This document shows, piece by piece, positions 2,429-22,021 of a DNA stretch of 62,919 nucleotides. Each line of letters opens with the position of its first letter. Position 1 is the stretch's first letter. Below the pieces are notes generated by a model. It did no database searches. It was not told where the DNA came from and saw only the letters and a program-made list of their open reading frames with translations. The DNA is taken from positions 1 to 62,919 of IMG/VR virus record IMGVR_UViG_3300021962_000100; one strand, written 5' to 3'. The translations under genes were made by a program, and so were the position numbers. This stretch comes from a virus.

Positions 2429-4846
2429 TTAGAGGATGAATGGATAGGTAGTAGTTCCAAAAACATACCCTCCATCTGCAAATGGCTCACCACCATATTG
2501 ACTCTTGATTCTAGCTTCTTTGTAAGCCATATCAAATGCTTTTTGATAGTCACCAGTTTTAGCTAAGTAATATTGAATTCTATCCTCTAATGTTTGACCA
2601 TTAGCACCAGTTAATGGTTTTTCTATACCAGTAGGTGTAACAAATCCATAATCATACTCTGACATATACTGTGGAGTAGTAACATTCATGTTTTGTCTGC
2701 GACCCATTTCTAAATCAGCATCCATAGCGGCACCAAAAGTACCAAACGTTCTTCTATTAACATTAGCTGTTCTTTGATCTTTACGTCCTTTTTGAGAGTC
2801 TAAAGCTTGATTAAGTAACTGTGTTCTAGCAAGCATATTAGAATTATTAATAGCTGCTTGCTGTGCATTTGTTTCTCTTTGTCTATCAACGTTTCTAGAT
2901 TGCACTCCAGCAACAGCATCCATACTAGCTCTTAAACTTTTACCAAGCATGTCTTTTAACATAGCTTGTTTTTTACCAGAAGAACCAGAAGTACCAGACA
3001 TAATTGAATCAGCAACTTGATTAAAGAGAGCATTAGCTTGATCAGTTTTAGTTTGATATTCCTCATATGCACCTGGTAATTGCGCACTACCAGGAAGTAC
3101 CACATTTGATGCAGCAGGATTAACTTGCATAAGAGCATTTCTCATGACATTTTTTTGAGCAGCTTTACTCCAATGAGGCATAGGTTGCATCATTGCTTTT
3201 TGCACCTTACCTCTTTTACCATTACAGTTACATTCTTCCATGTTAGTAACAGGGAATCTTTTAACTTCTCCAGTAACAGGATCTTCACAAACACATTCTA
3301 ATTCTTCAGTAGTACTTTGACATGACGGATCCATAGGTTGACAAACTCCATTTGCATCTTTTGGTGCAGGTTTTGTATTACCATTTGCATCTTTATAAAC
3401 AGATCCATCTGCATTTTGACAAAGACATGGAGTTTCTTCTGGCTCTTCATTTTCTAAATAAACAGCTTTTTCATTAAATGTTTCTTGAACCTCTTTTGTA
3501 TTACATCTATCAAAAATTGCTTTAGATGCAGCACCAGGTGCCATATGAGTACGTCTACTTCCTGTTTTTTGAAATGCAACTTCAGGATCTGTTAGTTCTT
3601 CATATGTTGCTCCATTTTTAATCATATTACAAATAGCATCTTCCCAACCTGAACTAGGTCTTCCACCTCCTACAGCACCTCTTGCAGGAACTCTTTCACG
3701 ACCTTGTTGATACCAACCTTGCGCATTTGGTCCAGCACCGCTAACTGTACCTGAGTTCCAACCTGCTCCGGGATTTGCTTGTACTTTAGTAGCTTTGATA
3801 TTATTTACAGTAACTTCACTATCACCTGGTCCACCAAATTTAGGCATACCACCCATAGCCATTTCTGGATTGTAAGGGAAATCATACCCACCCATTTCCA
3901 TACCGTAGCCTGCATAAGCAGCACCTCCATATGCCATCATACCTTGTTGCATCATTTCTGGAGGAGGCATAGAACCTTGTGGTACCATTTGATCCATGCC
4001 TTGTTCTGGCATAGCTACAGGAGCTCCACTAGGCATTTGTTGCGGATAAGCAGGTTGACCTTGACTTTCATTCATCATCATTTGCTGATCCTGCATAGCT
4101 TGTTCAGGAGCCATCTGTTGCATTTCTTGTGCCATCATAGGATTTTGTTCCTGTGGCATTTGAGGATTTACACCAGGATTGGCAGATTGTGCAAGTGCAT
4201 CAGCTTGAGCTTTTAGTTCTGGCATTAAATCTTCTTCAGAAATTCCATTTGCTTCCATGTATGGTTTTGCCATAGAAGGAACACCTTGTGGAAATCCTTT
4301 CATTGATTCTTGTACAAGAGCTAAAGCACCAAGCTTCATGATGTAATTCTTAATCATGATAGTAGCAGTATTTCTTTCTAACTTGCTAGTATCAGGATCT
4401 AATAGAATTGACTTATATTTATTGATGTTATATGGCTTTGCAAGTTCTGCTGGAGTATATCCGCCTTTCTTTGGGGTTTTATTAAACATTGCAAGTACTG
4501 CAGGATCATTTATTCTTAATGAAGATGTATCACTAAAAATAAAAGTATCATCAGGTAAGTTTAATGGAACGCCACCTTCATGGTGTCTTTTACCTTTGAT
4601 CTTAACATGATCTGGAATTGATTGTCCACTAATAGGACCAAATGCAGTTTCTCCACCTTCAGCTTCTAGGTTAGCTTCATCTCTTGGTACTGCAGAGATA
4701 CTATCTTTTACACCTTTATAAAAGGTTTTATCAGATGCTGTATAATCTGCGCCACCAAAAGCTCCAGGATTTAATGATAATGACCCATCCACCTGCTTAC
4801 CGTAAGCAGCTTTTTCTAATGGCATTTTTGTAATTCTAACTCTCAT
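2429..4846 (-). CDS. Putative virion cargo protein, Met/Gln/Pro-rich
   Basis: This 805-residue protein has three visible parts. Residues about 55-200 form a compact region containing HHEGGVPLNLPDDTFIFSD and KKGGYTPAEL, a pattern I recognise from conserved large proteins of Bacteroidota phages. Residues about 215-340 are low complexity, dominated by Met, Gln and Pro, and probably disordered. Residues about 470-550 are a Cys-rich insert (CLCQNADGS, ECVCEDP, CNCNG). The C-terminus carries the double-glycine motif FADGGYVFG. Its N-terminus (VRITKMP then AAYGKQ) resembles that of the next gene at 4856-8503, suggesting paralogy or a shared targeting sequence. It starts 9 bases after the upstream stop. 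The function is not established; position among the giant proteins suggests an internal virion protein. Confidence 0.7.
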   Translation of the reverse strand: MRVRITKMPLEKAAYGKQVDGSLSLNPGAFGGADYTASDKTFYKGVKDSISAVPRDEANLEAEGGETAFGPISGQSIPDHVKIKGKRHHEGGVPLNLPDDTFIFSDTSSLRINDPAVLAMFNKTPKKGGYTPAELAKPYNINKYKSILLDPDTSKLERNTATIMIKNYIMKLGALALVQESMKGFPQGVPSMAKPYMEANGISEEDLMPELKAQADALAQSANPGVNPQMPQEQNPMMAQEMQQMAPEQAMQDQQMMMNESQGQPAYPQQMPSGAPVAMPEQGMDQMVPQGSMPPPEMMQQGMMAYGGAAYAGYGMEMGGYDFPYNPEMAMGGMPKFGGPGDSEVTVNNIKATKVQANPGAGWNSGTVSGAGPNAQGWYQQGRERVPARGAVGGGRPSSGWEDAICNMIKNGATYEELTDPEVAFQKTGSRRTHMAPGAASKAIFDRCNTKEVQETFNEKAVYLENEEPEETPCLCQNADGSVYKDANGNTKPAPKDANGVCQPMDPSCQSTTEELECVCEDPVTGEVKRFPVTNMEECNCNGKRGKVQKAMMQPMPHWSKAAQKNVMRNALMQVNPAASNVVLPGSAQLPGAYEEYQTKTDQANALFNQVADSIMSGTSGSSGKKQAMLKDMLGKSLRASMDAVAGVQSRNVDRQRETNAQQAAINNSNMLARTQLLNQALDSQKGRKDQRTANVNRRTFGTFGAAMDADLEMGRRQNMNVTTPQYMSEYDYGFVTPTGIEKPLTGANGQTLEDRIQYYLAKTGDYQKAFDMAYKEARIKSQYGGEPFADGGYVFGTTTYPFIL

Positions 4847-4855
4847 TTTGTAAAG

Positions 4856-7800
4856 TTATATAAATTCTATTTGACCTCCAGCGGCAAGGATTCTACCAAT
4901 CTCTTCTTGTGTAAGATCATACTCTCCACCTTTTTGATATCCTAATTGACCCCCTCTTTTTACAAAGGCTGCATTACCTACTACAGAATTGAAACCAGTT
5001 GAACCTCTACCTTGTCCTTTAGACATGATTCTTTGATTCAAACCACTATAGCCACCTCTATAATCTAACTCATTTACAGGTTCTCTATTGTCTGCACTAG
5101 TTCTTGCATTAAGATAATCATCATTATATATGTTATCAATAGTTCTTGCACCAGACTGGATAGCTGATCCTGCTAATTGTTTACTGTTTAATATTCCATC
5201 AGGATTTAAAGTTCTTGCAGTATTGATATCATATGTAACTGAAAAATCTTGTGGTGCTATTGTGCTTGAATTATAGTTAGGGTTATAACAAGGACTGTTA
5301 GGATCCATAACATCTTTTTCTTCACATGGTCCCATTGCTTGACCATTTGTATTTTGATTTGGATCAAATGGACCTGTACCGCTAAATTGACCACCTGGAT
5401 CAAATGTAGGTATATAACCTCCAAACTCAAGCATCATAGGATTTCTCTGCATTGACTGCTGATTAATCTTTTCTTGCTCAGATCTTTGTTGCATCTCCTC
5501 TATACCTTGCAATCTTTGACTGCGAGTATTTAAAATATTATTTAAGCCTTCATCAATTTGACCTTGCTCAGTACTATTCTGTAAAATCTGATCTAATGAT
5601 TTTTGCTCATCTGCATTAAGGTCAGAGCGTACATCTCCCCAATTAGATTCAAGATAGTCTCTATTTGATTGTGTGCTTCTATTTGCTTTTACTTTTGCCA
5701 TATAATCAGCATCAGACATAGGGGCAGTTTGACCTTCTTGAGCAGGACCTTCATAGAAAGCATTAGGATCTTGACGCATCAATCTTCTATTGTTTCTATT
5801 CATTGCTCTTTCACCTGCTCTAATAGAAACTCTAGATTCATCTTCTAAACCTTTAACATTACTTCTTTGCTTTTCAGGAGCTTCAATACCACCTATTTGA
5901 TTATTATCATTTTGTAAGTAGTCTGGTATTTTATCAGTATTCTCATCAGCTTTAAAGGTAGGATTCGTATTATTATTTGTTGTAGTTCCAGTAGCATTAG
6001 GATTATTAGGATCTACCCATCTTCCAGTTAAAGTCATAGTTTTTTTACCTGACCACCATGGACCTTTCTCATATTTATAATCATACATGTATCCTGCTTT
6101 TCCAGGTTCAGCTGGTCCAGTAAGTCCTGGCATTTGACCAGAAGGCATTTGTAAGGGTTTACCATCAGCTGTAGTTGCAGGTCCTTGTTGTGACATCCAC
6201 ATAAAGTCATAGTTCTTTCCAGTATTAGGATTCATCTTAAATGGAGAAAACATATTTCCAAGTTGTTGTTTCAAACTTGGTGCCGTTGGATATGGTGAAT
6301 AACCACCACGTCCATCAGGATATACTTGTTGCTGTGTTTGTTGACCTTGTTGTTGTGTTGTAGTTTGTCCAGAAGGTGCTGTAGCATATGGTTTAGATGG
6401 GTTATAGGATTCAGTAATTACCCCTCTATTTTTTAAATCTAAATATGCTTGATAGTTATCTCCACTTGTTATGTTTTGATTGTATTGTTGGAATGCTGGT
6501 GATTGAAATGCTGGATCAACTTTATTATTAGCTGGATCCATTTTGCTAGAATCAACAACATAACCTGGCTCAGCTTTTATTAATCCACCTCTTCTATACA
6601 TAAAGGGATCATTTACATCCTTAGATTGAATATCATTGTTATCATATTCTACTATAGGACTGATAGACATTTCATCTCCACCATATACAAATTTTTGTAG
6701 GTTACCCATTTGATCCATTTGCGGATTAGTAACTGGACCTCCAAAAGCTTGTGTTGGTAAATTAGGATCTGGAAAGAACTGATCTTCTAATTGACTTTGC
6801 ATTGAAGCATTTTGCCAATTATTGTACAACTCAGCATTTCTTGCATTCCATTCTGGATTTGCAGAACCTGAAAGTGAGGAGTACTGATTACCTTGTGCGT
6901 CAGTTGTTAAATAACTTCCACTATTTATAAGTACTAATTCTTCAGGTGTTAATTCCTCGTTATTAAGTAATTTTTGATTGATTCTATTAAATTCTGCTTG
7001 ATCAACCGGACTACTCCATACTTTATCTTCCATGACTCCTGTTGATGGATCATCTGGTATCATTGACTGAACATAAGGTAATGTATTAAAAAATGCATCC
7101 TGTTCATTTTGTGCAGCTTCCGCTCTTGCTTTTGCTGTTGACGTTTGCCAATTACCAGCTGTAGAAAATACAAATGGTTCAATAACACAACCATTTTCAT
7201 CACACTGTTCTTCTTCAGATACAGCAGGATTATTATTTAATGGAACGTTGTTAGATTTAGTAGGATCTGCCGCAGAATTTATTGTAGCAGCTTGTTTTTT
7301 AACAATCTTGCCAGGAAAACTATAAGATTCTTCTGAATAACTATATGGTCCATAAGTTGTACCATATCCCATACCTGGCATTACTCCAGATCCCATACCC
7401 ATAAGCATTTGAGCAGGAATACCTTTAGCACTCCATTCTCTTTTACCTGTCCACCACGGTCCTTTTTTATATTCAAAATCTACAAAAGGACCTGTTTGAC
7501 CTTCTGTGGATTGATTAGTATTAGCAGATGAACTTGCAGGCATTTGTGGAGAAATAATTTGTAGATAATTAGGAAGTCCTGGAACACCCATATATCCTGC
7601 AGCAATATCTCCAAAAGCTTTTTGCCAATCCTTATTGGCTTGATTCATTTGTCTTTGTTCTCTTCCTCTTTTAGCCTGAGGTATTTCAAAACCTGCTCCA
7701 TGAACATCATTCATTGGCTGTTGAAATATATTTGATGTAGATCCAGTATATGCCTGTAAGTGATGCATTGGATTTTCTGTATCCATCTCCATACCTAGTT

Positions 7801-8503
7801 GAGCCATTGGAAAACCTGGTTGTTGTTGAGGTTGTGGTTGATTAGTCTTATCATATATTTCTTTAGCATAATATTCATTACCTAAATCTTTAATACCACG
7901 TCTAAAGTTATTTACTAAACTTTGTCTACCATTAATAGGTGTATCAGTTATACTAGCAGAATTTACATTATCCTGTTGCATTCCGTCCGCAGCTTTCTTA
8001 AGACCTCTTACTACAGTTTTAACAAATTTCTTTTTACTGATTGATCCTCCTTTTTTCATTTCTTCTGAGTCTTCTAGATTATCTTCATTAAAAGCAAGTT
8101 CATCACCCCAACCTTCGGCATCTTCTTCTGTTTCTTCAGATACCCATGGTTCATTAATGGTGTATAATGGCGGTGTTACTGGTTCTTCAGTTGTCTCATC
8201 TTCAATAACTTGCTCATCTTTGAAAGGTATTTGAGTATCTTGTTTATACAACATACTTACTACCTCATCAATTTTATCCATTGCATCATAATAACTTAAG
8301 CCATAAGTGTCTTGTAATACTGATGCAATATTGTCAGCATCCGGATCTAGAGTTAATTCATCAAGAATAGTATCAACTATATCTTGTTGCCCTCCACCAG
8401 TTTGCATACCATATTGTGCTTTCTGTAAGAATTTTGCAGTTTTATTTATATAAGTCCCTTGATTATTAGGATCTTTATAAATTCTTACCTTTACTTTTTT
8501 CAT
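4856..8503 (-). CDS. Putative virion cargo protein, Gln/Asn/Pro-rich, 1215 aa
   Basis: A 1215-residue, largely low-complexity protein rich in Gln, Asn, Pro and Gly, with no catalytic motif that I can recognise. It contains an internal repeat: KKGPWWTGKREW near residue 345 and EKGPWWSGKKTM near residue 815, each following an aromatic, acidic stretch. Double-glycine motifs recur (KKGGSIS, AFGGPV, VYGGDE, RRGGLIK, EFGGYIP). The C-terminus, YQKGGEY followed by DLTQEEIGRILAAGGQIEFI, matches the tails of the proteins at 8563-14136 and 14139-16625. The start ATG at 8503 is preceded by a TTTAGTATATTAAT box (about 8523-8536). A structural or encapsidated role is inferred from the neighbours and the shared tail. 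Confidence 0.68.
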   Translation of the reverse strand: MKKVKVRIYKDPNNQGTYINKTAKFLQKAQYGMQTGGGQQDIVDTILDELTLDPDADNIASVLQDTYGLSYYDAMDKIDEVVSMLYKQDTQIPFKDEQVIEDETTEEPVTPPLYTINEPWVSEETEEDAEGWGDELAFNEDNLEDSEEMKKGGSISKKKFVKTVVRGLKKAADGMQQDNVNSASITDTPINGRQSLVNNFRRGIKDLGNEYYAKEIYDKTNQPQPQQQPGFPMAQLGMEMDTENPMHHLQAYTGSTSNIFQQPMNDVHGAGFEIPQAKRGREQRQMNQANKDWQKAFGDIAAGYMGVPGLPNYLQIISPQMPASSSANTNQSTEGQTGPFVDFEYKKGPWWTGKREWSAKGIPAQMLMGMGSGVMPGMGYGTTYGPYSYSEESYSFPGKIVKKQAATINSAADPTKSNNVPLNNNPAVSEEEQCDENGCVIEPFVFSTAGNWQTSTAKARAEAAQNEQDAFFNTLPYVQSMIPDDPSTGVMEDKVWSSPVDQAEFNRINQKLLNNEELTPEELVLINSGSYLTTDAQGNQYSSLSGSANPEWNARNAELYNNWQNASMQSQLEDQFFPDPNLPTQAFGGPVTNPQMDQMGNLQKFVYGGDEMSISPIVEYDNNDIQSKDVNDPFMYRRGGLIKAEPGYVVDSSKMDPANNKVDPAFQSPAFQQYNQNITSGDNYQAYLDLKNRGVITESYNPSKPYATAPSGQTTTQQQGQQTQQQVYPDGRGGYSPYPTAPSLKQQLGNMFSPFKMNPNTGKNYDFMWMSQQGPATTADGKPLQMPSGQMPGLTGPAEPGKAGYMYDYKYEKGPWWSGKKTMTLTGRWVDPNNPNATGTTTNNNTNPTFKADENTDKIPDYLQNDNNQIGGIEAPEKQRSNVKGLEDESRVSIRAGERAMNRNNRRLMRQDPNAFYEGPAQEGQTAPMSDADYMAKVKANRSTQSNRDYLESNWGDVRSDLNADEQKSLDQILQNSTEQGQIDEGLNNILNTRSQRLQGIEEMQQRSEQEKINQQSMQRNPMMLEFGGYIPTFDPGGQFSGTGPFDPNQNTNGQAMGPCEEKDVMDPNSPCYNPNYNSSTIAPQDFSVTYDINTARTLNPDGILNSKQLAGSAIQSGARTIDNIYNDDYLNARTSADNREPVNELDYRGGYSGLNQRIMSKGQGRGSTGFNSVVGNAAFVKRGGQLGYQKGGEYDLTQEEIGRILAAGGQIEFI

Positions 8504-8562
8504 AAAACTAGTTCTATATATTAATATACTAAATTTTAGTTTAACCGATAAACCTAATAAGT

Positions 8563-11500
8563 TTACTGTTCCTCAACTATATAACCTTTTGCAACATACT
8601 CTTGTATCTGTTTAGGAGTTAATTCCATTTCAATTATACCACCTTCTTTAAATCTTTTTGGAGGTGGTTTTAAATGTGGATTTTTAAGTAACATTCCTTC
8701 ACCCACTGTATGATGAGACTGTATTCCAGTACCATCTGGCCAAGTAAAACCTTTTAAGCTTCCTTTTGATTTAAAATACTTCTTAACGTAAGCTCTTTCT
8801 TTCTTAGATAATTCATCTGTTTGGAATACAGTATCAACTCCTTCTTTAGGTCCTTTGGTAACTCTATCGTATACTGTATCATAAGTTATTTTCCCAAGAA
8901 GTCCAAGTGTTGGGACAGCCAATATAAGAGGTACAATGACCTGTCTAAAACTTTTTATTTGATTTGCTTGCTGTAAATATTCTCTTTCAAGTTCATTATA
9001 CTCATTGACCTGCTTATGATAAAAATCTAATTGTGCTTGAATTTCATCATATTCTTTTTTTAATTCAGGGTTTCTTTTACCAGCAAGTCTTTCAGCTTTT
9101 TCATCAACAAGTTTATCTAAGTTTCTCATTAGCTGCTGCAATGAATCAGATCTTTCTCTAAGTTTTTGCAATCCTCCATTAATCATATTTTCAATTCTCT
9201 TATAGTCCTGAAAAGTTTTGATTAAATCTGAATCTATTTGACCAGAGGGTAAACTGTTTGCTAAGCTTTCAAAATTATAACGCCTTGTTAAAAGTGATTT
9301 TGGTTTTAAAGCAGTGTTAAGAATTGAGTATTGTAATAAGTCTTTAGCTTCATTAAAGTCACCTAAAATAGATGAGTAATATGAAGTTCCATAAGTATCT
9401 CCTTCAACTATTGATGCAGATCTTACACCAAGTCTTTCAGTTATTTCATTATATATCTTTTGTATATTTTTTTTGCTGGCATCACTCATTGCCATTTTTC
9501 CTAAAATACTGTTAGATAACAAGTCACCTGTTTTATTAATTGATGACATTGCTTCCTCATTATAAAGAGGACCACTATGATGCTTAATAATATCTGTAAC
9601 AATTTCTTTTTGTTCAGGAGTAAATACTCCACCACCGGATGTTGCAAATTTTACACTATTAACATATTCAACTGGATTAGTTGCATTAACATTTAATCCA
9701 TATTGCATTTGACCTAATATATTTCCTTGATGGTTTGGATTACCAAGTTTAACAGTATTTAAACCAAAACCTCTTAAAGTTCCTCCACCTTGTGTAATAT
9801 CCCATTTTTTAAATGAGTTCTCTAAATCTTCTATTGTTCCTCTATGTGATACTTGTCTATTGTGTACAGAATTATTTATATAAAAGTCATTTAAAGCAAG
9901 TTGCATTCTTTCAGGATTTTGTGCAACAGATTCTATATCTCCAATAAAATCCATTAATCTTAATGCTTCAATATTTGCATTAACGTCAGATAATGCCTCA
10001 GTAGATAACTGTGGTCCTATTGATCCTTTAGATCCTACTAAACTTTGTACATAAGTTTCTTGAGCTTTTTTAACAGTATTAACATTCCCATAATTTATAT
10101 AAGTGTCAATTCTATTAACATGTTTACTTTTACTTGATTCATACGCGTCTACAATTGTTTTAATTGCAGGATCAATTTTATCCATGAATTCTTTTGCAGA
10201 AATATTAATTTCTAAACCTAGCATTTCAGGATCAACTAAACTTGTTTTCATTAGGTTTATAAAACTTCCGGTTGAATTGGGATGTTTTTCTTTAATTTTA
10301 TTACCTAACCTTTCAATGGCTTTCTTTTGTTGAGCATAATATTCATCTGGAAAAAATTGTCTAAATAATTCTAATTCAATAGATCTTTTTTCTCCAGTTA
10401 ATGGATTAGAAGTCCAATTGACTTTTACTGTACCATTTGGATTAGTATGAATTATATTAAAATCAATATTGCCTTCCTCACCTGGAATACCAATATTATG
10501 AACTTTAGCAGGTCCTTTATCTAGTACATGCTGTAAAGTATTTTTTACTTTGTTATCATAATCTTTATCTAAAATAAGTACATCTACATCTCCAGTTAAA
10601 TGTGGTAAACCCCCTTCTGTAACACCAACCGCTGAACCATAAACTTTACCTCCAGTAAGTTGTTCAACATGTTTTATATTATCATTTAATGTTGTTAAGT
10701 ATTCTGGTGATACGACTGGATTACTGTTACCTTCATGGATATATTCTAGTTTTTTATCTTTAGGACTAATAACCATAGATTTAGATGGCATTTCAACTAA
10801 AGCTTGTACAGGTTTACCAGTTTTAAATGAAGTAATTTGACCTTCTCCTTTTGTGATTGCTTCGGATAAAGGAGAACCTTTTTCAATTTTTAAACCTTTA
10901 TCTGTTATTTGAATATTTGGAATATTTCTTTCAAGACGCGCAATCTCTCCTTGTTTTTTAAAACTATCTAGTAACTGTCGTGAATCTATTCCTGTACGTT
11001 CTAAAGCATGTGGTAAAATATTTTTTACTTTATCAACTTCTGCAAGATATTGATTTGAAACACCAATTGCTTTATGAGTTTGATCTATGTATTGATTATA
11101 AGCATTACGAGATATTTGATTAGATTCCTCAGCTAATTTTCTTAAAGCTTTATCTCTGAATGTAATTGCTTTTGCTGTATTTTTTGAGAAATTTTTTAAT
11201 CCTCTTTTACCCTTTCCAATAGCACCAATTAATAAACTTAAACCAGCTTCATTTACATTTGGGTTCTCCTCATCTAAGAAAGCATCAGCCATACCAACAG
11301 CAGATAATACAGTAGGAAGGTTGTTTAATACCTTACTCATTATATTAAAGTTCTGTGGTTTATCTTTTACAATATCATATAGTCTTAATGGGAATTTTTC
11401 TCCTGTAGTTTTTCTATAGTCTTTGTAACGATCCTTAAGCATTTTAGGAGTTATCTTATCATAAGCATTTTTGATAATACCCTGCTGTAATAGATCCTCT

Positions 11501-14136
11501 CTAATCTCCATAAGAAAAGGAACTTTTTCTGTACCCTTACTTTGATTTAAAAAATAATCAACGCTTTTACCTATATAATTTTTTCCCGGAGTCATTATAC
11601 CATATATACCTTTTTTTTCTTCTTCTAAGCCAGGTATAGTTAATTGTTCAGCAGCAGGAGTAACAAGATCAAGTTTAGCTAACTGATTATCTAAATAAGA
11701 TGGTCCTAGTTCTTTTGCACCATAGCTGTTTATTTTATGACCAAATTCATGAGAACCTACAAGACGTAAGTCTTCTGGTTTAAATGCTCCAGGACGTATA
11801 CCTATTGCATTGCCACTAGTAGAATAAAATGCTGCATGTCCACCAAGCATTCCTTCAGCTTTTGCTATAAGATTATCAGATTCCATCAATAAGGCATCTA
11901 GCTCATCTGCTTGATCTTGATATTCTGTCTTTGAAATTTTTCCTTCATTCAATGCAATTTCTAACTGATCATACTCTTCATTTAATGCGTCATTTACTTC
12001 TTTTTCATTTTTGTAAAAAACATTTACATTTTTTAAGTCATTAAGTCCCTGAACAAATGTTTCAGGTGTTTGTCCTTGAAGTGCTGGAGTATTATCTATT
12101 AAGTTTTGTAATCTTCTTTGACCCTCAGGTGTTTTCCATTGTTCTAATTTTTCTGCTCTTATTGTATCTAAAACCTCTGCTATTGTTTCATTTTCTTGAG
12201 CAGAATAATTTGGACCCATGTCATCTAACATATATTTAATAGGCTCATTTGCTTTATCAAAACCTAAAACTTCAGACTTTGCTAATTCCTCTTCAATATT
12301 AAGTGGTTTTTTAGTTGGGTATGGTTCTACAGTTGCAGCCGTTCTATATTCATCAGGAAGAATAAACTCTTTTTGAGGTTGTCCAGCAAACTCTAATGCT
12401 GCAGGATTATTACTTACATTATAACCCTGTAATTTAGAAAATGGAACATTAGTAGTCAATAAATTATTTACATCACCTCTTTGACCTGCCACAATTCCTA
12501 CTTCACCTTCTGTACCAAAAGGTTGATTTGTCCACCATTTACCTGCGGTTTCTTGTGGAAAAAATATACCAGCCATTTCAGTTCCTTCTGGATACATTGG
12601 GTTATATAATTCACCACTATTTAAATATGTTTTTACATTAGGGGATTGTAATTGTTCAGGAGTTAATTCTGAAACTGCACCTAATTCATAATCATGGTAT
12701 TCAGCAGCTAAAGGATTTTTACTAAAACTTTGATTAGGAGGTTCTACTCTGTACAATGGAACTCTAGTATCAATAGCTCTAACTGTTTTAGCTAATGGAC
12801 TTCCTGTAGATGAAGTAGATCCTACTGGTAATAAACCAGTACCCGTATTACCTGGATTAGGGCGCATAGGACCAGCTTGGCCCCATTCACCATAAGAAGA
12901 TTTTAATATATCACTTTCAACCATTGCCATTTTATAGGCATTTGCTTCTTCTGATAATGCTACTAATGGATTTTTTCCTCCAGCAAGAGTTAATGCATTC
13001 ATACCAATATCAAATGCTGCAGTTCCTGCATTTGCCCAACTTGGATCATCAACAAACTTTTGAGTTGATTCTACAGTTTCTGGAAGCATCTTCATTCCTT
13101 GAGCATATAAACCAACAGGATGCCACCATGAAGCAAAATCAATAGCTCCCGTAACAAGATTCTTATCAGCCCCGTCTTGATATCCTGTTTTTGCTTTCAT
13201 GTCTTCATATGCTTCATAGTTATAAGGCATAGTTTCTGTCGGAGACATTGCATAATGAAAAGCATCTAGAGGATTTAATAGAATAGAACGTGCTCTATTA
13301 TAATAACCTTCAGCTGAATTTGGGTTTTCAAATGATACATGATTAGGATCTCCAAGATTTAGTTGTTCCATGGTAACTTTACCAGGACCACTTTGACTAT
13401 TGTATCCATTTTCATCTGCCACTCTCCTTAATACATCTGGATCTTGACTAACATAAATATTAAGGGCTTTTTTCTTAAGCCTTTCATAATCCTCCTTTGC
13501 TTTCTGGATAGATTCTTCAACGCTTAATTTAGAATTTTGGGATCTTAAATCTTGAGCTACTTGATATACAACATTATCATAGTTATCATTAAGAGCTTTT
13601 TCAGCCAAGAAACTTCTTTTATTGTTATACTCTTGTTTAGCAGCTTCCACATGTCCCCATTGTTCATCTGTAGTTGGAGCTAATTGAGCTAAAGTACCTT
13701 GAATTGTTTCTGATTGAAAAGCATTTGGGTTAGCTATAGCAAAAGCTTGTTCTTCTTCTAATTTTCTTTTTGCTTCAGCATCTAACTTTTGTTGAAGTGC
13801 TAAAGCTGCATCTTCTTTTTTCTTTTGTTCAGTAGCTGTTTTAAGAGCTGTGGCATTTGCTCTTGTTGGTGGTCCTTGAGAGGCAGCCTGTACTTTCATA
13901 GCACCAGTTCTAATATCTGGTTTACTGTATATAGATTGCACACTAGAAGAACCTACAGGTTGCCCCATACCAGCATTAAGCTTTTGCAATATCATTGCAT
14001 CTCTTACAGGAGCACCATCCGAATAAATCCAGTTACCTGAATTATCTTTTTTAAATTTATTTCCAGGATAATCTCTAAGCTCCACTTCACCTCCTACTGG
14101 AAATTTTGGGATACCAACAATTTTATACTTTGCCAT
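8563..14136 (-). CDS. Giant multidomain virion cargo protein with HExxH and nucleotidyltransferase-like motifs
   Basis: A 1857-residue protein. The N-terminus (residues 14-70, with PGNKFKKD and MILQKLN) is shared with the product of 14139-16625. Around residues 455-595 the series LYRVE, KWWTNQP and KEFILP is reminiscent of ADP-ribosyltransferase folds; this call is weak. Near residue 795 is HEFGH, a zinc metallopeptidase-type HExxH. Near residues 1165-1190 are GSAVG and GDVDVLILD, the GS...DxD signature of nucleotidyltransferase folds. Residues about 1620-1725 form a coiled coil. A hydrophobic stretch (VIVPLILAVPTLGLLG, about 1732-1750) could span a membrane. The C-terminus is FKEGG followed by ELTPKQIQEYVAKGYIVEEQ, the tail shared with its neighbours. 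Likely delivered with the DNA into the host cell; substrates are unknown. Confidence 0.72.
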   Translation of the reverse strand: MAKYKIVGIPKFPVGGEVELRDYPGNKFKKDNSGNWIYSDGAPVRDAMILQKLNAGMGQPVGSSSVQSIYSKPDIRTGAMKVQAASQGPPTRANATALKTATEQKKKEDAALALQQKLDAEAKRKLEEEQAFAIANPNAFQSETIQGTLAQLAPTTDEQWGHVEAAKQEYNNKRSFLAEKALNDNYDNVVYQVAQDLRSQNSKLSVEESIQKAKEDYERLKKKALNIYVSQDPDVLRRVADENGYNSQSGPGKVTMEQLNLGDPNHVSFENPNSAEGYYNRARSILLNPLDAFHYAMSPTETMPYNYEAYEDMKAKTGYQDGADKNLVTGAIDFASWWHPVGLYAQGMKMLPETVESTQKFVDDPSWANAGTAAFDIGMNALTLAGGKNPLVALSEEANAYKMAMVESDILKSSYGEWGQAGPMRPNPGNTGTGLLPVGSTSSTGSPLAKTVRAIDTRVPLYRVEPPNQSFSKNPLAAEYHDYELGAVSELTPEQLQSPNVKTYLNSGELYNPMYPEGTEMAGIFFPQETAGKWWTNQPFGTEGEVGIVAGQRGDVNNLLTTNVPFSKLQGYNVSNNPAALEFAGQPQKEFILPDEYRTAATVEPYPTKKPLNIEEELAKSEVLGFDKANEPIKYMLDDMGPNYSAQENETIAEVLDTIRAEKLEQWKTPEGQRRLQNLIDNTPALQGQTPETFVQGLNDLKNVNVFYKNEKEVNDALNEEYDQLEIALNEGKISKTEYQDQADELDALLMESDNLIAKAEGMLGGHAAFYSTSGNAIGIRPGAFKPEDLRLVGSHEFGHKINSYGAKELGPSYLDNQLAKLDLVTPAAEQLTIPGLEEEKKGIYGIMTPGKNYIGKSVDYFLNQSKGTEKVPFLMEIREDLLQQGIIKNAYDKITPKMLKDRYKDYRKTTGEKFPLRLYDIVKDKPQNFNIMSKVLNNLPTVLSAVGMADAFLDEENPNVNEAGLSLLIGAIGKGKRGLKNFSKNTAKAITFRDKALRKLAEESNQISRNAYNQYIDQTHKAIGVSNQYLAEVDKVKNILPHALERTGIDSRQLLDSFKKQGEIARLERNIPNIQITDKGLKIEKGSPLSEAITKGEGQITSFKTGKPVQALVEMPSKSMVISPKDKKLEYIHEGNSNPVVSPEYLTTLNDNIKHVEQLTGGKVYGSAVGVTEGGLPHLTGDVDVLILDKDYDNKVKNTLQHVLDKGPAKVHNIGIPGEEGNIDFNIIHTNPNGTVKVNWTSNPLTGEKRSIELELFRQFFPDEYYAQQKKAIERLGNKIKEKHPNSTGSFINLMKTSLVDPEMLGLEINISAKEFMDKIDPAIKTIVDAYESSKSKHVNRIDTYINYGNVNTVKKAQETYVQSLVGSKGSIGPQLSTEALSDVNANIEALRLMDFIGDIESVAQNPERMQLALNDFYINNSVHNRQVSHRGTIEDLENSFKKWDITQGGGTLRGFGLNTVKLGNPNHQGNILGQMQYGLNVNATNPVEYVNSVKFATSGGGVFTPEQKEIVTDIIKHHSGPLYNEEAMSSINKTGDLLSNSILGKMAMSDASKKNIQKIYNEITERLGVRSASIVEGDTYGTSYYSSILGDFNEAKDLLQYSILNTALKPKSLLTRRYNFESLANSLPSGQIDSDLIKTFQDYKRIENMINGGLQKLRERSDSLQQLMRNLDKLVDEKAERLAGKRNPELKKEYDEIQAQLDFYHKQVNEYNELEREYLQQANQIKSFRQVIVPLILAVPTLGLLGKITYDTVYDRVTKGPKEGVDTVFQTDELSKKERAYVKKYFKSKGSLKGFTWPDGTGIQSHHTVGEGMLLKNPHLKPPPKRFKEGGIIEMELTPKQIQEYVAKGYIVEEQ

Positions 14137-14138
14137 AA

Positions 14139-16625
14139 TTATATTTGTTCAATAGTGTAACCTAAACTTCTTAATCTTTTTACTTCAGCTTCTGTAAGTT
14201 CAACTTCATCTCCAACTTTATGTTCACCTCCTTTTTGTTTCTTAGGTTTATAATTATAGTTATAATCACCATTAAGATACTTTAATAAATCACCCTGTTG
14301 TGCTCCATATAAATCAAGTAATTGAACTATATCATATGGTAGTTTATCTTCATCGGCAAGTCTATAAAGATTGTCTAAAGTTTCTTTAGTTATTTTACCA
14401 GCTTCCCATGGTGTTTTATGTTCACTTAAATAAAACAATGTTGATAGTTTTCTTGCTTCAATTTCAGATGGATCAGATACATAGTTAAACTTTTCTTGAT
14501 CAAAACTGTCACTCCAAGGACCATCGTTAAAAGCTTTTAGATTTATTGGAGGAACTGTTTCCATAACATCCAAAAGAGCATCACCTTTATGACTTACTTC
14601 ATGAACATAAGTAGTATTAAATTTACCAGGATCAGCTTTTGTATATAAAAACATTTTGTTCTTTTCAGGATCCCAATAACCATCCTCACGCATGTCTTGG
14701 GGCTTTTGACTTGTAATTGAAAAATATGTTGGTCTATTTAAAGCACCAATGCGCTCATTTGATTTTCTAACATCTTGCTTTTTAAGTTGTTTATCATAAT
14801 ATTCTTGAAAACCTGAATTTTTTTTATTATAAATATCATTTTCTTCATTCATAATAGCAAATAATTTCTGATTTAAATCATATAACTTAGGATCATTAGG
14901 ATTGTTTTTTTCTATTGTTTCAATTTGTTTATATAAATCTAGATAAGTTGTTCCAAATTTATTTTTTATATAATCATCCTCTATGCCAGCGTTAGCATAA
15001 GGATCACGCTTTGAATATGGTTGTGTTTTGTAATAATTTTCTACAAAATCTTTACTCTTCCAATACATATCAGATTCTTTCTTTGGAACCTGTTTAGTAT
15101 TGTATCTTTTTCCTTTATATACAAATTCTTTTTCTCCGGACTCTCTTGCATTTCTAAAAGCTGAATTAAATGAACTATATTCTGAGTAATCATTCAATCC
15201 CCATTTTTTAGGATTCCAAGCTTCATACCATGATATATAATCCTTACCATACTTATCTTTATCTCTTTCCCATTGAGATTTTAATTTAACATCTTTTTCA
15301 GTTTTTACTCTTATACAATCTCCAAATTCATCTTTTGCATATCCTGGAGGACATGGACTTCCTCCTTCTTCCATTTGATTTAAAGAAGGAACAGAGATAT
15401 CTTCTACAATATAACCTCCTTTTCTATACTCTTCTATTTCTTCTGGAGTAAGTTCAGTTTCAATATATCCTCCATCATTATATGAACTCTTGTACTCACC
15501 AGGATCATTGGGGCTTTTTTTAAAGTACATGTTATTAGTCTGACCCTTTTTATTTTTGCCACCAACAATACCATCAGGCAATTTATTATTACTACTTAGA
15601 TATAATAGATAATTGGTTTTTTCTTCAGGTGTCATATTACTAGCTCCTGCCTTTGCACCTACATAATTATTATAAATATCTTCACCAGATTCTCTTAACT
15701 TATCTGTCCAATCTCTGTCATCCATCCCACCAAATAGAGTAGATAATTCATGACCTATTCCAGATAGATTAGAACCAATAAAACCTACTGCTGGAGCTAA
15801 AAATTGAAAATGACTCATAGGATTACTTACAGCATCTTCAATAGCTTCTGCAGTATATCTTCCTGCATTAGCATGTCTAAAGTTATCTACTGGATCATCA
15901 TTTGGTCCTGCAGCAGCTTCACCAGCTAATCTTGCTCTTTCCATTGGAAAACCAAGACTATTGTTTACTTTCCATTCTGCGGCTTTAAGATCACTCATAT
16001 TTTTTGGAGGCAATATCAATTGATCTGTTACATCAGGATAATATATATCTTGTTCTCTTTGTATCTCAAATAATCTATCTGCTTCTTGTTGATCAGATAT
16101 TTGTGGAGACATTCTTAAGTCACTTATTTTTTGTCTTCTTTCAGTATTAGACATTGGCACTTTAGCCTCATACTTTGGAGCATTTTGTACTACTGGAGAA
16201 CCTACTGGTTTACCTTTACCATAATTAAGATCTTGTAATATCATGGTATCTGTTACCGGTGCTCCAGATTCATATATCCATTTACCACTCTCATCTTTTT
16301 TAAACCTGTTTCCTGGAGCTCTATCTAATTGAACATATCCACCATTATCAAAAAACATTGGTGATGAACTACCTGGCGCTATTGGGCTATAAGTTTTACT
16401 TTTAACTTTTTTCTTTTTAAATAAAGCATTAGGTTTACTCAAAGCACTCTTCTTAAATAAAGAATTCTTTTTAAACAATCTATTAGTTGCATTTAAGTCA
16501 CTAGAAAACTTACTTCCACCCTTTTTCATTTGAGGGGTTGTATCTGTACCTACTGCTTTTTTAACTTTATTCTTAGGATCATTCAGATTTTTAAGAACAT
16601 CAATAAGTAATTTCTTATTATACAT
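14139..16625 (-). CDS. Putative virion cargo protein with HExxH metallopeptidase-like domain
   Basis: An 828-residue protein. The N-terminal 75 residues are basic and carry repeated LFKK units (RLFKK, SLFKK, ALFKK). Residues about 93-150 repeat the N-terminal domain of the 1857-residue neighbour (PGNRFKKDESGKWIY, MILQDLN). A copy of the shared tail motif sits internally near residues 390-408 (ELTPEEIEEYRKGGYIVE) and a second copy forms the C-terminus (ELTEAEVKRLRSLGYTIEQI), as if two units had been fused. Near residue 672 is HEVSH, followed about 45 residues later by SDPSEIEARK. HExxH plus a downstream Glu is compatible with a gluzincin-like zinc peptidase. The start codon overlaps the preceding stop as TAATG, implying coupled translation. 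Confidence 0.7.
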   Translation of the reverse strand: MYNKKLLIDVLKNLNDPKNKVKKAVGTDTTPQMKKGGSKFSSDLNATNRLFKKNSLFKKSALSKPNALFKKKKVKSKTYSPIAPGSSSPMFFDNGGYVQLDRAPGNRFKKDESGKWIYESGAPVTDTMILQDLNYGKGKPVGSPVVQNAPKYEAKVPMSNTERRQKISDLRMSPQISDQQEADRLFEIQREQDIYYPDVTDQLILPPKNMSDLKAAEWKVNNSLGFPMERARLAGEAAAGPNDDPVDNFRHANAGRYTAEAIEDAVSNPMSHFQFLAPAVGFIGSNLSGIGHELSTLFGGMDDRDWTDKLRESGEDIYNNYVGAKAGASNMTPEEKTNYLLYLSSNNKLPDGIVGGKNKKGQTNNMYFKKSPNDPGEYKSSYNDGGYIETELTPEEIEEYRKGGYIVEDISVPSLNQMEEGGSPCPPGYAKDEFGDCIRVKTEKDVKLKSQWERDKDKYGKDYISWYEAWNPKKWGLNDYSEYSSFNSAFRNARESGEKEFVYKGKRYNTKQVPKKESDMYWKSKDFVENYYKTQPYSKRDPYANAGIEDDYIKNKFGTTYLDLYKQIETIEKNNPNDPKLYDLNQKLFAIMNEENDIYNKKNSGFQEYYDKQLKKQDVRKSNERIGALNRPTYFSITSQKPQDMREDGYWDPEKNKMFLYTKADPGKFNTTYVHEVSHKGDALLDVMETVPPINLKAFNDGPWSDSFDQEKFNYVSDPSEIEARKLSTLFYLSEHKTPWEAGKITKETLDNLYRLADEDKLPYDIVQLLDLYGAQQGDLLKYLNGDYNYNYKPKKQKGGEHKVGDEVELTEAEVKRLRSLGYTIEQI

Positions 16626-19600
16626 TATCTAGGAGAATGTTGTGTTTTAGTATTGATAATTTTTAAAACCATGTTAGTATCTCTTGAATTACTTTTAGAA
16701 AGTTTAATAAAGTTAATATAATGTCTGAACTTCTTTCTTTGTAACTCAGGTTTAGAATAATCTAAATTTAACTGGTTTAAATTCTTAATATAACCATTAG
16801 GTTCTGTAATCCAAATGTTTCTTTCATCATAGTTACCAAGCAATACTGTAGAATCAGGAGAAGGTAAATACGGTCCAGGATTAGGTGGATATGGTGAACC
16901 AATTGGGAACTCACCTCTATTTTTAGTAATATCCCAAAATTGATTTATTCTATATTTATGTTCTTCTTTAGAATAAAGAATATCATAACTTGCTAAGTTT
17001 GGTGCAAGCTTAGGGAACTGTAATGATAAGCCTATATCATTCTTTGGATAGATATTTAAATTTAAGTATCCTGAAACCTGATCTGAATTATGAATTACAG
17101 CATGATCAAAGTTATAATCTAAGACATGGAACTGATCCACACATAAGTTTTTATCTCTTCTATAACATTCTAAGTAATACTCAATACTTTTAATTGTATT
17201 TACCATCTGACCAGTTGGCACAGGTAATTCTATTTCAAAAGGATGTTGTACTCCGTAGAAATTACAATAATCATTACAGAATGCATTATGCTTCCATATA
17301 CCATTATTTTTTGTAGTTAAGAATGTTCCTTTACTTGGTACATAGAAGTTAGGGTGCCAGTCATGAAAACTAATCCAGAATTGTAATTTAGGGTCATAAC
17401 TAACCGTCCAAGATGCATCATCAAAATATGTTGGATCACCTAGTTTAAATTTAACTACTAAGCCATTACCGTTTTGATATTGAAACTTATCAATTGATTG
17501 AATATAAGTTGTTTGACCTCTATACTTTTCTTTCAATCTAAAATCTCTTTTAGAAAAATAAAGCACACTGTTGTCATTATCATAACTTGCTGTACATGAT
17601 ATACCAGCTACTGGATTATCTGTATGTGGATAATTAGGGAATTCTTCCAAAAGTTTATATGGTAAGAATTCACTAAACCACCACTTCATTCCATCTTGAG
17701 AAATTTCTTTTAAACCATTTTGAAATGAAAATACTTTACCTTGGTTTTGTGAGATATAATAAAGTCCTGCAGGTGTAGATACAACCGCATATTTATTTTG
17801 TGATGATCCATATTCATATGGTCTCTCAGCTACTACAACATTTTGTGGAGCTTGAGCAAATATACCAGCATCTCCAACTGTTACTTTAGTGCCGCTATCA
17901 TCTAACTGTAATGTATCAACGCCTTGATAAATAATAGGACTATCATTTTCAAATGTGATAAATAAACCAGTTTTTGCAAAACTTTTTACTGAACTCAACT
18001 TGCTTTTAAACTCTACCATGTTAAGTGGTAAAAATGTTAACCAAGCGTCTACATTACTTGTTTCCTGTTGTTGTAATGAGTAGTTAATTCTATTAGGATA
18101 ACTTACATAACATAACTCAGCTACATTAGGATTGTAACTTGTACCTTGTAAAATACCAGCAGTAAAATATTGATTGAATAAAAATCTTGATGCACTTAAT
18201 GAATAATCATAAGCATAGTAGTTTCCTTTAGTAAGAATCTCTGGATTAGAATCAAATAAAACATCAAGGTTAGTATAATTATATTTATTGTAAGGTTGTT
18301 GCCAAGTAAGTGTACCCGGATCTCTAAAGTCTACAAGTACCTCAGATTCTACAAAGAAATCTCTAACACCATTGGCAGAAGTATAAAAATAAGAATTTCT
18401 TACTCCAATAAATCCAGGGTATAGTAATGATAAATTAGTCTGTTTATTAAAATAAACATTATCTAAATCATAGTAACTTCCAGGCAATAAACCATTACCA
18501 TAGTTTGGGTTATTACTAAATAAACTAAATAAGTTACTTATATTAAATTCACTGATATCCCAAGGTTGACTATTTACTTTAAACTTGGGTTCAGGAATCA
18601 TTTGATTTAAAAAATAATTCCATTCTATATTATCTGGAACATCATACAAAGTATCATAAAAGAAATGCATGATATTCTTTTCAGTAAATCTATTTACATA
18701 AGTGTCTCCTCCAAACATAGTTGGAGTTTCAGTTTTATTTTGAATAAAATTTGAAAATCCACAAGTGCTACCAAAAGACAAAGTTTGTACAGAGTTGGGA
18801 CCTGTAGTTATATTGTAATCAAGTTTTTGTTCACATGGTGTAGCAACTATTTGTTGTACAGTATCTAATTGCCCATATTGATTTTCAATTCTATATTTTA
18901 ATCCTACATAATGACTAGCAATTTTATTTATAAAATTTTTAGTCTTACCGTTTTCAGTCCAGTTAACTTTATTAGGAGTAAAATTACTAGCACCAGGAAT
19001 ATTAGCTATTGGATTAAATGTATCAATAGCATAACCAAGTGTCATCAATGATTGATCAACACTTCTTCCATTGGCGTTTAATAAAAAATGTGGGCCAGAT
19101 GTAGTTCCTGCTGTATCACCACGTTTTGTTCTTAATACAACTAACTTAGGTCTTTTAATATTATTTACTCTGTACTTTCTATTAACACCTGAAGAGTCTA
19201 CATATTCAGTTAAAGATTGTAATTGATCAAATATATATTGACCTTCTTCCATCACAAATCTTTTATCTTGAGAGTTATTAGGAATTACAAACTTATTGTA
19301 ATCACCATGTCCAACTAATTCAAGAGCATACTGCCTCTTTTTAATTACAGCATATAATGTATCTACGGCTTGTTGAGTACCTTCAATGAAATAATAAAAT
19401 AATTGACCACCTGTTGTTATAGTATTTAAATAACCTGAAATGCTGGGGCCAAGTAATTCATACCCACTATATGTTTTATCGTATTGTGGTAATGTATAGT
19501 AATGGCCTGTAGAACTAACACCATCTTGAGCATTTTCAAAAATGCTACTTAAACTCACACCTCCAGTAAATGCCTCAGCTATAGGACCACCTGCATTTGT

Positions 19601-22021
19601 ATACGCATTTAAAGCAGTATTAAATGCTGGAATAGGACCAACTACAGGAAGTGTTAATGCCGTTTCAGCTAGCGAATTTAACTGTAGACCAGTAGTTGTG
19701 GTTACAGTACCTGGAACAGGACCCGTAAATTGTAAACCATAGTTTGGTGAAAAATTACCTGCCGGATAATTAATTTTTAATTCACCTAAAGCTTTTATCA
19801 ATGCGTTGATTACACCATTTGCTAATGCAAAGGCAACAACCTTATTACTCATTAATTTAAACTTAGGATGCTTATTTGGTTCTATAAAATATTGCAATGC
19901 TTCTCCCTGTACACTTCCATATATTTTTACTTCTGATGTAGATAAGTAAGGATTAATAAAACTTGTATCAGGTGAGTGGAAAGAAATAATATCTAATGGA
20001 ATATTTTGATTTAGTTTATCACCATCATTATCAGTTTTAGTAATAAATGGATCATTGTATTGATAGTTAGCAAATGCTGGGATACTTGTATTATTTAATG
20101 CAGGAACAATAGTATTAAATGGATAGTTAGCATATAATCCTACAATGCCTGAATTTTCAGCACTACCTCTTGGGCTATAGTCACGGAAATTATTAATCAT
20201 TCCTTTAGCCAAGATACTTTTATTACCGTGTCTTGATCCTCTTAATATTTCATAACCTACAATACCGGGGATGTCTTTACCATCATTATCTTTTGGAAAG
20301 ATGATATTTTTAAATTGAACACCCATCAGTCTAATATAAAACTTACCATTAGGTTTTTTATAAAAGTGATTAACAGATGGATGTAATGCATTATCAGGGA
20401 ACTTGTGGTGTCTTATCTCTTTACCACATAGATCGTAATTTGTATTACTTGTTTTAGTCCAACAGTATTGAGTTGAGTTCCAAACTTCCGGTTGATTGTC
20501 AGGATAAATTTCTGTTGACTGCCAATAACCCATTTTACCTCTAGACAATATTACTCCACCATCAGGCAAAGGTGTATTGATAGAAGCTTGTAAAACAGAA
20601 GCTGTATTAATACTTTGAAAAAACATGGAATCTCCAGGCAGGGTAGTTCCAGGTACATTAGCATATGGTCCATTTTCTAAGTAACTTGTACCATTATATA
20701 CATAAGAACCTGCGGGTCTTCCTGGAATATGATAAGATGCAGATTTATCACCTGTATCATATACCCAGCGAATAAAAAATGAATATACTTCATCTCTTAA
20801 ATAACCAGCATTTTTACCACCGTCAATATAATATTCTTCTGGGTATTCTACTGAGACCCATTCAGCTTGTATAAGATTTGCTAAAGGTTGATAATTAAAA
20901 TCAAATTTACTAGTTGGGCCGATCCTAAGTAAATAATTATTTACTTCAGCCATTTGTTCTGATTTCTCAAATACAGGATTCTGAAGTAATAACTCTTCTA
21001 CAGGAACAGTTGCAGCTGTCTCAGGTATTTGATCTAGCACAATAGTTTTTATTCTTGTAGAATAATAGCCTACTCTTTTAGCACTTAAGTTTTGATCAAT
21101 AAATCTTATTACAACTAATTCAAATTCATCAAAATGTTCTGAGTCAGCATCAACAGCAATTTCAAAAGACCCTTTCTCATTTACATAATTAAATATAGGT
21201 TGTGTATAACCTGCAGAAAAATAGTTTGTAACCCTTTGTCTATTAATTGTATACGCTGCTGTTATTGCATAAGATCCATTTTCTATTACACCTTGTTGTT
21301 CAGAAGTTGTTAAATCCAAACAAGGAGTAATAACTAATGATGCTAATCTTATTTTATCACAATCTAAAATTCCTGGTAAAATAGGAGTACAAATATTACA
21401 GTTAGAACCAGGAATAGGATCACAATTTTCTTGCCACGGAACATTAGGCCAAAGCATGGTATCTCCAGAAGGTCCTGTGTATAAGTTACCATTACCTGTA
21501 AAAACATAATCACTTGGTGGCCATGTTTTAGGATCACCTATATTAAGATATCTATCTGGATTTAGTCCATCAGCCCAATATACTTGCCAAGTACAATCAT
21601 CTTTTAATTTTGATGCTCCAGTAATTAAGTCATGTTTAGTAAAGTTTAAACAGTTATCAATTACTATAGGTCTATATTTACAAAGATCAGATTCAAATAA
21701 ACCTATCTCTGAGTTAATTGGTTTCTCATCTAATGAGTTATATCCAACACTATATATAATCCATTTATCACTAAACAAATGTATAGCACCAATTATATAA
21801 ACATATGGTGCATTCATTTTAGTACCCGTTTGAGCACACAGAGCATTTGACTCTTCATTAGATAAAGTACCTAAATCCCCTTCTGCCGTATTATTAACAG
21901 CATTGCGGGCATGTGTCCACATACCTTCCTGTACAAATAATGGATCAGCATCTTTATTTAATCCCTTAATAAAAGAATTAGTTTGTACTTGTGAAGTTTC
22001 TTGACCTTGCTTCTTTGCCAT
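16625..22021 (-). CDS. Tail muzzle/hub-type structural protein (crAss-like), 1798 aa
   Basis: The N-terminus (SFIKGLNKDADPLFVQEGMW, then THARNAVN) is a pattern I associate with the very large tail-tip or muzzle protein conserved in crAss-like phages and related Bacteroidota phages. The protein is 1798 residues long, beta-rich, full of aromatic Gly/Pro/Asn loops, with no transmembrane segments and no recognised enzyme motif. It follows the ring/connector genes at 22021-23741, the order expected when a tail is built outward from the portal. Start and stop codons overlap those of both neighbours as TAATG, so the set is probably translationally coupled. The exact position in the virion is inferred by homology of pattern, not shown here. 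Confidence 0.75.
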   Translation of the reverse strand: MAKKQGQETSQVQTNSFIKGLNKDADPLFVQEGMWTHARNAVNNTAEGDLGTLSNEESNALCAQTGTKMNAPYVYIIGAIHLFSDKWIIYSVGYNSLDEKPINSEIGLFESDLCKYRPIVIDNCLNFTKHDLITGASKLKDDCTWQVYWADGLNPDRYLNIGDPKTWPPSDYVFTGNGNLYTGPSGDTMLWPNVPWQENCDPIPGSNCNICTPILPGILDCDKIRLASLVITPCLDLTTSEQQGVIENGSYAITAAYTINRQRVTNYFSAGYTQPIFNYVNEKGSFEIAVDADSEHFDEFELVVIRFIDQNLSAKRVGYYSTRIKTIVLDQIPETAATVPVEELLLQNPVFEKSEQMAEVNNYLLRIGPTSKFDFNYQPLANLIQAEWVSVEYPEEYYIDGGKNAGYLRDEVYSFFIRWVYDTGDKSASYHIPGRPAGSYVYNGTSYLENGPYANVPGTTLPGDSMFFQSINTASVLQASINTPLPDGGVILSRGKMGYWQSTEIYPDNQPEVWNSTQYCWTKTSNTNYDLCGKEIRHHKFPDNALHPSVNHFYKKPNGKFYIRLMGVQFKNIIFPKDNDGKDIPGIVGYEILRGSRHGNKSILAKGMINNFRDYSPRGSAENSGIVGLYANYPFNTIVPALNNTSIPAFANYQYNDPFITKTDNDGDKLNQNIPLDIISFHSPDTSFINPYLSTSEVKIYGSVQGEALQYFIEPNKHPKFKLMSNKVVAFALANGVINALIKALGELKINYPAGNFSPNYGLQFTGPVPGTVTTTTGLQLNSLAETALTLPVVGPIPAFNTALNAYTNAGGPIAEAFTGGVSLSSIFENAQDGVSSTGHYYTLPQYDKTYSGYELLGPSISGYLNTITTGGQLFYYFIEGTQQAVDTLYAVIKKRQYALELVGHGDYNKFVIPNNSQDKRFVMEEGQYIFDQLQSLTEYVDSSGVNRKYRVNNIKRPKLVVLRTKRGDTAGTTSGPHFLLNANGRSVDQSLMTLGYAIDTFNPIANIPGASNFTPNKVNWTENGKTKNFINKIASHYVGLKYRIENQYGQLDTVQQIVATPCEQKLDYNITTGPNSVQTLSFGSTCGFSNFIQNKTETPTMFGGDTYVNRFTEKNIMHFFYDTLYDVPDNIEWNYFLNQMIPEPKFKVNSQPWDISEFNISNLFSLFSNNPNYGNGLLPGSYYDLDNVYFNKQTNLSLLYPGFIGVRNSYFYTSANGVRDFFVESEVLVDFRDPGTLTWQQPYNKYNYTNLDVLFDSNPEILTKGNYYAYDYSLSASRFLFNQYFTAGILQGTSYNPNVAELCYVSYPNRINYSLQQQETSNVDAWLTFLPLNMVEFKSKLSSVKSFAKTGLFITFENDSPIIYQGVDTLQLDDSGTKVTVGDAGIFAQAPQNVVVAERPYEYGSSQNKYAVVSTPAGLYYISQNQGKVFSFQNGLKEISQDGMKWWFSEFLPYKLLEEFPNYPHTDNPVAGISCTASYDNDNSVLYFSKRDFRLKEKYRGQTTYIQSIDKFQYQNGNGLVVKFKLGDPTYFDDASWTVSYDPKLQFWISFHDWHPNFYVPSKGTFLTTKNNGIWKHNAFCNDYCNFYGVQHPFEIELPVPTGQMVNTIKSIEYYLECYRRDKNLCVDQFHVLDYNFDHAVIHNSDQVSGYLNLNIYPKNDIGLSLQFPKLAPNLASYDILYSKEEHKYRINQFWDITKNRGEFPIGSPYPPNPGPYLPSPDSTVLLGNYDERNIWITEPNGYIKNLNQLNLDYSKPELQRKKFRHYINFIKLSKSNSRDTNMVLKIINTKTQHSPR

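Follow-up and report, generated by a model that had tools for sequence, protein, structure and literature searches.

Phage T4 packages and injects a set of highly diverse proteins, the internal proteins and Alt, which have one short targeting sequence in common (PMC3012670, PMC5694885). This capsid targeting sequence (CTS) is N-terminal, comprises 10-20 residues and is cleaved. In the crAss-like phage crAss001, gp45 and gp46 are virion cargo that is stored in the capsid and tail (PMC10172136), and their genes lie directly after the muzzle gene. A further group, the polyvalent proteins of phages and conjugative elements, is described as very long and multidomain, with MPTase, ART and wall-degrading domains, and as encoded beside virion genes (PMC5512222).

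In this study, we analyzed a stretch of 62,919 nucleotides (hereafter, the window), which is the whole of IMG/VR virus record IMGVR_UViG_3300021962_000100. An earlier note, made from the sequence of the window, had proposed that several giant proteins end in a common tail motif serving as a virion-loading or processing tag. We found that the motif is far from chance, that it is confined to one block of genes in subtypes bound to particular gene positions, and that the proteins of this block vary in their enzyme content and shuffle their units. Judging by sequence and gene position, we consider it somewhat better than an even bet (probability roughly 0.55) that the tail is a small C-terminal docking or loading module that tethers candidate ejectable cargo in the virion.

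The locus resembles each of the described systems in part. As with the T4 CTS, one short sequence occurs on diverse candidate cargo, but the tail is C-terminal or internal rather than a short N-terminal sequence of the T4 type, has 20-28 residues and is unrelated in sequence. The block occupies the same syntenic place after the muzzle as crAss001 gp45/gp46, with the difference that its tail-bearing genes are extra genes before the last gene of the block, which we call slot 4. Neither gp45 nor gp46 of crAss001 was found to carry the tail, which is therefore not a general crAss cargo signal. Like polyvalent proteins, those of the block are long and multidomain, contain zincin-type motifs, ART-PolyVal and wall-degrading domains, and are encoded near virion genes; the slot-specific tags are a difference, as we met no common tag at the C-terminus in the part of the defining paper available to us (PMC5512222). 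These polyvalent features belong to the block as a whole, the window's own proteins having only zincin-type motifs and a sub-threshold match to the metallopeptidase family DUF6782.

Results and Discussion

Gene order and motif copies in the window

The 62.9-kb record encodes proteins matching Crass_capsid (1.2e-32), crAss_MUZ (2.6e-35) and CrAss_Ring_2 (2.1e-23), all above cut-offs, and its portal and large terminase were recognized through PHROG families. With the major capsid, muzzle and ring proteins that characterize Crassvirales, the window is a fragment of a crAss-like phage. On the minus strand, the ring proteins and muzzle are followed by proteins of 828, 1857, 1215 and 805 residues (slots 1 to 4) and then by more large ORFs. 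The genes that define the block are as follows:

16625..22021, minus strand: muzzle protein (crAss_MUZ), the upstream limit of the motif block in all relatives
14139..16625, minus strand: slot-1 protein, 828 aa, a mosaic, with an HEVSH zincin-type motif at about 14589-14603; ORF confirmed
8563..14136, minus strand: slot-2 protein, 1857 aa, with an HEFGH zincin-type motif at about 11737-11751; ORF confirmed
4856..8503, minus strand: slot-3 protein, 1215 aa, with tail B; ORF confirmed
2429..4846, minus strand: slot-4 protein, 805 aa, ending in GGYVFGTTTYPFIL and without the tail; the downstream limit of the motif block

Two proteins encoded elsewhere in the window may be mentioned here. One, of 1938 residues (50991-56807, minus strand), consists mostly of collagen-like triple-helix repeats (Pfam Collagen, E 6e-226) and is probably a fibre; the other (46222-46740, minus strand) has a CHAP / NlpC_P60 domain and is likely a peptidoglycan hydrolase.

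All four motif copies were found where the earlier note had placed them, with the tails as it quoted them, and the three minus-strand ORFs that carry them were confirmed:

4859..4918, minus strand: subtype B tail DLTQEEIGRILAAGGQIEFI, C-terminus of the 1215-aa protein; profile match E=1.9e-10
8566..8625, minus strand: subtype A tail ELTPKQIQEYVAKGYIVEEQ, C-terminus of the 1857-aa protein; profile match E=2.5e-14
14142..14201, minus strand: subtype E-like tail ELTEAEVKRLRSLGYTIEQI, C-terminus of the 828-aa slot-1 protein; weak, sub-threshold match to Pfam DUF7210
15402..15455, minus strand: internal copy ELTPEEIEEYRKGGYIVE, residues 391-408 of the 828-aa protein; a seam at which stand-alone homologues elsewhere stop

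The three proteins had been thought otherwise unlike one another. This proved wrong for two of them, as the 1857-aa and 828-aa proteins share a 57-residue module near their N-termini:

13933..14103, minus strand: N-terminal module of the 1857-aa protein (residues 12-68), 63% identical over 57 aa to the 828-aa protein
16182..16352, minus strand: matching module of the 828-aa protein (residues 92-148), 63% over 57 aa to the 1857-aa protein

A second N-terminal module, GQWxxPGxxTRIP..ITM, is common to slot-1 proteins. Shared N-terminal modules of this kind could be the real docking element in place of the tail. No close relatives of the 1857-aa protein were detected among viral contigs by pattern search, and it had no matches in phage records.

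The slot-4 protein contains a conserved domain that recurs in phi17:2 gp041, where it is annotated as a virion structural protein. Slot-4 proteins, i.e., that of the window (2429-4846, minus strand) and its homologues, close with a different conserved tail, GGYVYxDxxYPFIx, and a (K)VRIxKxP string is a frequent start of slot-3 and slot-4 proteins alike. A relationship between slot 4 and the portal-bound domain of gp45 was considered and rejected: it was not significant by profile comparison, hhalign or fold search (the last found no gp45 chain), and only a ..D.(F/Y)(I/V)FSD.. string could be aligned, so that neither sequence nor structure placed the protein in the gp45/gp46 family.

The motif is restricted to the block between muzzle and slot 4

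A strict regular expression for the motif gave 115 matches in 1292 proteins from 121 loci, and none in the same proteins reversed. Profiles built for three subtypes (described below) had 125, 36 and 16 matches at E<0.01, again with no matches in reversed proteins. At the DNA level, a degenerate pattern of the motif was found in 40 contigs among 2.9 million viral contigs, of which 24 had a crAss capsid and 13 more a muzzle of the window type; the pattern with its residues in reverse order had no matches in the viral contigs, and the motif pattern itself had none in 11.3 million bacterial and archaeal genome contigs (257 Gb). We do not count as a negative the empty result of a tblastn search of phage records with a 28-aa consensus, since the query was possibly hidden by low-complexity filtering.

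Within one group of environmental crAss-like phages, the large, otherwise variable proteins of the block nearly all share one end module of 20 to 28 residues. When 31 whole crAss-like records were searched with the profile, all 62 matches (E<=1e-3) fell 0.35-16 kb downstream of the muzzle. In 28 loci whose muzzle was at least 45% identical, the stretch from the end of the muzzle gene to slot 4 had 51 complete genes, of which 44 end in the tail and 48 contain a copy, whereas none of the 249 genes outside the block had it (Fisher p about 1e-45, a nominal value since the loci are related and relatedness was ignored). The proposed restriction to a single locus was thus borne out, and the finding that would have spoken against a virion role, a motif common in unrelated non-virion proteins, was made neither in the bacterial and archaeal genomes nor among the other phage genes. 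The claim of C-terminal placement held for the variable, enzyme-bearing proteins of this virion-gene block in most cases, but not throughout, as some copies are internal.

The cyanobacterial Leptolyngbya phage Lbo-JY46 has a muzzle 24% identical over 88% of the window muzzle. In this more distant carrier, a similar tail closes the second gene that follows the muzzle (domain E 0.0017 with an A profile built without Lbo-JY46); the tail-ending protein of this phage has 674 residues.

Tail subtypes are bound to gene slots

The single common form given in the earlier note can be refined, in that the 1215-aa protein has a tail of a separate subtype (B) that is bound to a gene slot. Tail A (ELTxxEIxxYxxxGYIVEEL) and tail E (GDEVDEATxxxLxxLGYTFEQI) both end slot-1 and slot-2 genes. 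Tail B, which reads EGDEVxMTxEExxxFxANGGExEYL or YDLTQEEIGKILAAGGQIKFI, ends the gene immediately before slot 4. The layout of the window matches that of its relatives: slot 1 has the E-like tail, slot 2 tail A and slot 3 tail B, and slot 4 follows. Independent pattern scans, which did not require a stop codon, found the motif to be C-terminal in 25 of 25 B-type and 12 of 12 E-type matches, and slot 4 was the next gene in 23 of the 25 B-type matches. Within slot-3 homologues, the tail is 82-86% identical and the bodies 38-54%. One Pfam family, DUF7210 (PF23843), overlaps the tail: positions 13-37 of its 38 align with residues 799-823 of the 828-aa protein, but at 19.8 bits the match is below the curated cut-off of 27, and it was the sole match among 38 members scanned.

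This binding of subtypes to slots, with A and E on slots 1-2 and B on slot 3 beside slot 4, is also what one would expect if a tail bound other tails, or the protein that follows in the block, in the formation of an ejection complex or a tail-barrel plug, and so set the order of assembly rather than the loading of cargo. The presence of several copies in one protein would, in addition, permit multivalent contacts. We nevertheless regard such an assembly or oligomerisation element as unlikely, because the diversity of payloads and the shuffling of cassettes resemble a portable tag more than a fixed scaffold, and because some slot-1 proteins have no terminal copy.

Internal copies mark the fusion of tail-closed units

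Of 96 complete motif-bearing proteins, 31 carry the motif internally as well as at the C-terminus, and another 11 carry it internally alone; a free C-terminus is therefore not essential. The origin of internal copies is illustrated by a 324-aa slot-1 protein of one relative, which ends in the tail and matches over its full length (59-63%) the first 320-331 residues of longer proteins of 507, 801, 972 and 1339 residues, where the tail is internal at that point. A stand-alone protein of 183 residues has the same relation to a 632-aa protein. Since stand-alone homologues in other phages stop exactly at the copy, the suggestion that the internal copy in the window reflects fusion of once separate genes is borne out. 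In a different arrangement, a 211-aa cassette of payload plus tail is 92-96% identical in two proteins whose preceding parts differ, and the 828-aa protein of the window is itself a mosaic, residues 451-828 matching one phage at 51% and the remainder matching others. Taken together, the pairs of stand-alone and fused proteins, the cassette and the mosaic extend the fusion idea to a general shuffling of tail-closed units.

Given the clear shuffling of units at the tail, and the frequency of short cap-like helices in general, the tail might be a mere recombination seam or folding cap that is kept through unit exchange at that site and has no role in targeting. We consider this very improbable. 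Tails B and E are strictly C-terminal, B is limited to one gene slot, and conservation of the tail at the protein level exceeds that of the bodies, all of which favors a selected function of the tail.

The upstream GG and the predicted structure of the tail

Each motif copy had been said to follow a charged GG. A GG within about 15 residues upstream was observed for 73 of 99 A-type, 26 of 33 B-type and 14 of 15 E-type copies (113/147 overall, compared with 13% of random 15-mers from the same proteins); thus, the enrichment is strong but the feature is not universal, about a quarter of A-type copies being without it. The motif, E-L-T-x-x-E-I-x6-G-Y/G-x-I/V-E, is predicted to form an extended-helix-extended structure. 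In a 44-residue model, the last 24 residues are predicted with confidence (pLDDT about 90) as one helix flanked by two extended segments, and a fold search with this model found no solved structure that resembles the tail. Conserved residues concentrate in the helix and the GY.(I/V)E core.

The enrichment of GG raises the question of proteolysis. The charged GG and the tail might constitute a C-terminal propeptide, in which the tail directs or marks the protein and a maturation protease then cuts close to the GG or at it. Cuts at internal copies would release separate effectors in the manner of a polyprotein. Internal copies do part units that stand alone in other phages, zincin-type motifs occur within the same proteins, and there are precedents: the targeting sequences of T4 internal proteins are cleaved (PMC5694885), and P1 DdrB is processed prior to packaging (PMC5512222). 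Cleavage at GG is weakened, however, by the A-type copies that have no GG nearby and by conservation that is found not at a cut site but in the helix together with the GY.(I/V)E core. Moreover, the spacing of GG varies, and no prohead protease was recognized among the window proteins scanned, which were a subset of the ORFs. We therefore view a processing site as an improbable explanation of the tail.

Payloads of the block proteins

Enzyme domains in the block differ from protein to protein. One relative has an ART-PolyVal domain (6.6e-13, above cut-off) directly upstream of the tail, YkuD was above cut-off in two block proteins, and lysozyme-like matches in two block proteins were just under it. 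Further payload matches were to DUF6782 metallopeptidase (in the 828-aa protein, a weak one), a metallo-protease PHROG and an L-Ala-D-Glu peptidase PHROG. The zincin-type HExxH motif occurred in 19 proteins and in none of the reversed controls. A SET payload, indicated by Pfam matches in four block proteins, was rejected: in the two proteins for which positions were seen, the match covered half of the profile and fell on the conserved N-terminal slot-1 module.

A candidate loading module

The docking or loading reading has the best support: the tail is short and shared, lies at protein ends, does not occur outside the block and comes joined to interchangeable enzymes, and in crAss001 this block encodes stored cargo. 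The T4 internal proteins, diverse cargo with nothing but a targeting sequence in common, set a precedent (PMC3012670). Genes lying between the muzzle and slot 4 would, in the proposed mechanism, encode modular proteins that are kept in the capsid or tail until they leave the particle along with the DNA. Every unit would comprise a payload that varies (zincin-type HExxH, ADP-ribosyltransferase, L,D-transpeptidase or lysozyme-like) and a closing tail, which would bind one common site in the assembling virion, e.g., on the portal, in the inner tail barrel or on the slot-4 protein. Any payload joined to the tail would then be co-packaged, and the shuffling and concatenation of payload-plus-tail units would leave internal copies behind. 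That the block proteins are present in virions, bind a partner and are ejected is what we infer. Caution is warranted by the proteins with internal copies only (11/96) and the shared N-terminal modules; also, the tail model shows only a helix. More tentatively, the tails may form a portable cargo code, in which short slot-specific C-terminal modules bring a fast-changing set of enzymes into the virion, and cassettes of payload and tail are traded among phages.

A tail that serves as a loading tag would provide a sequence handle for the ejected effectors of uncultured crAss-like phages, nearly all of which are unannotated, and a tagged reporter would be a simple test of how these virions select the proteins that they store. 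The T4 CTS and the tail would then be two unrelated answers to one problem.

A second short motif in the slot-1 protein

Residues 467-511 of the 828-aa protein (about 15093-15227, minus strand) contain another short motif, F..AF..AR..G...F...GK.Y.T. It matches four other block proteins and a hypothetical protein of Tortoise microvirus 70 (41.5%, E 2e-3), and is possibly common to tailed phages and microviruses.
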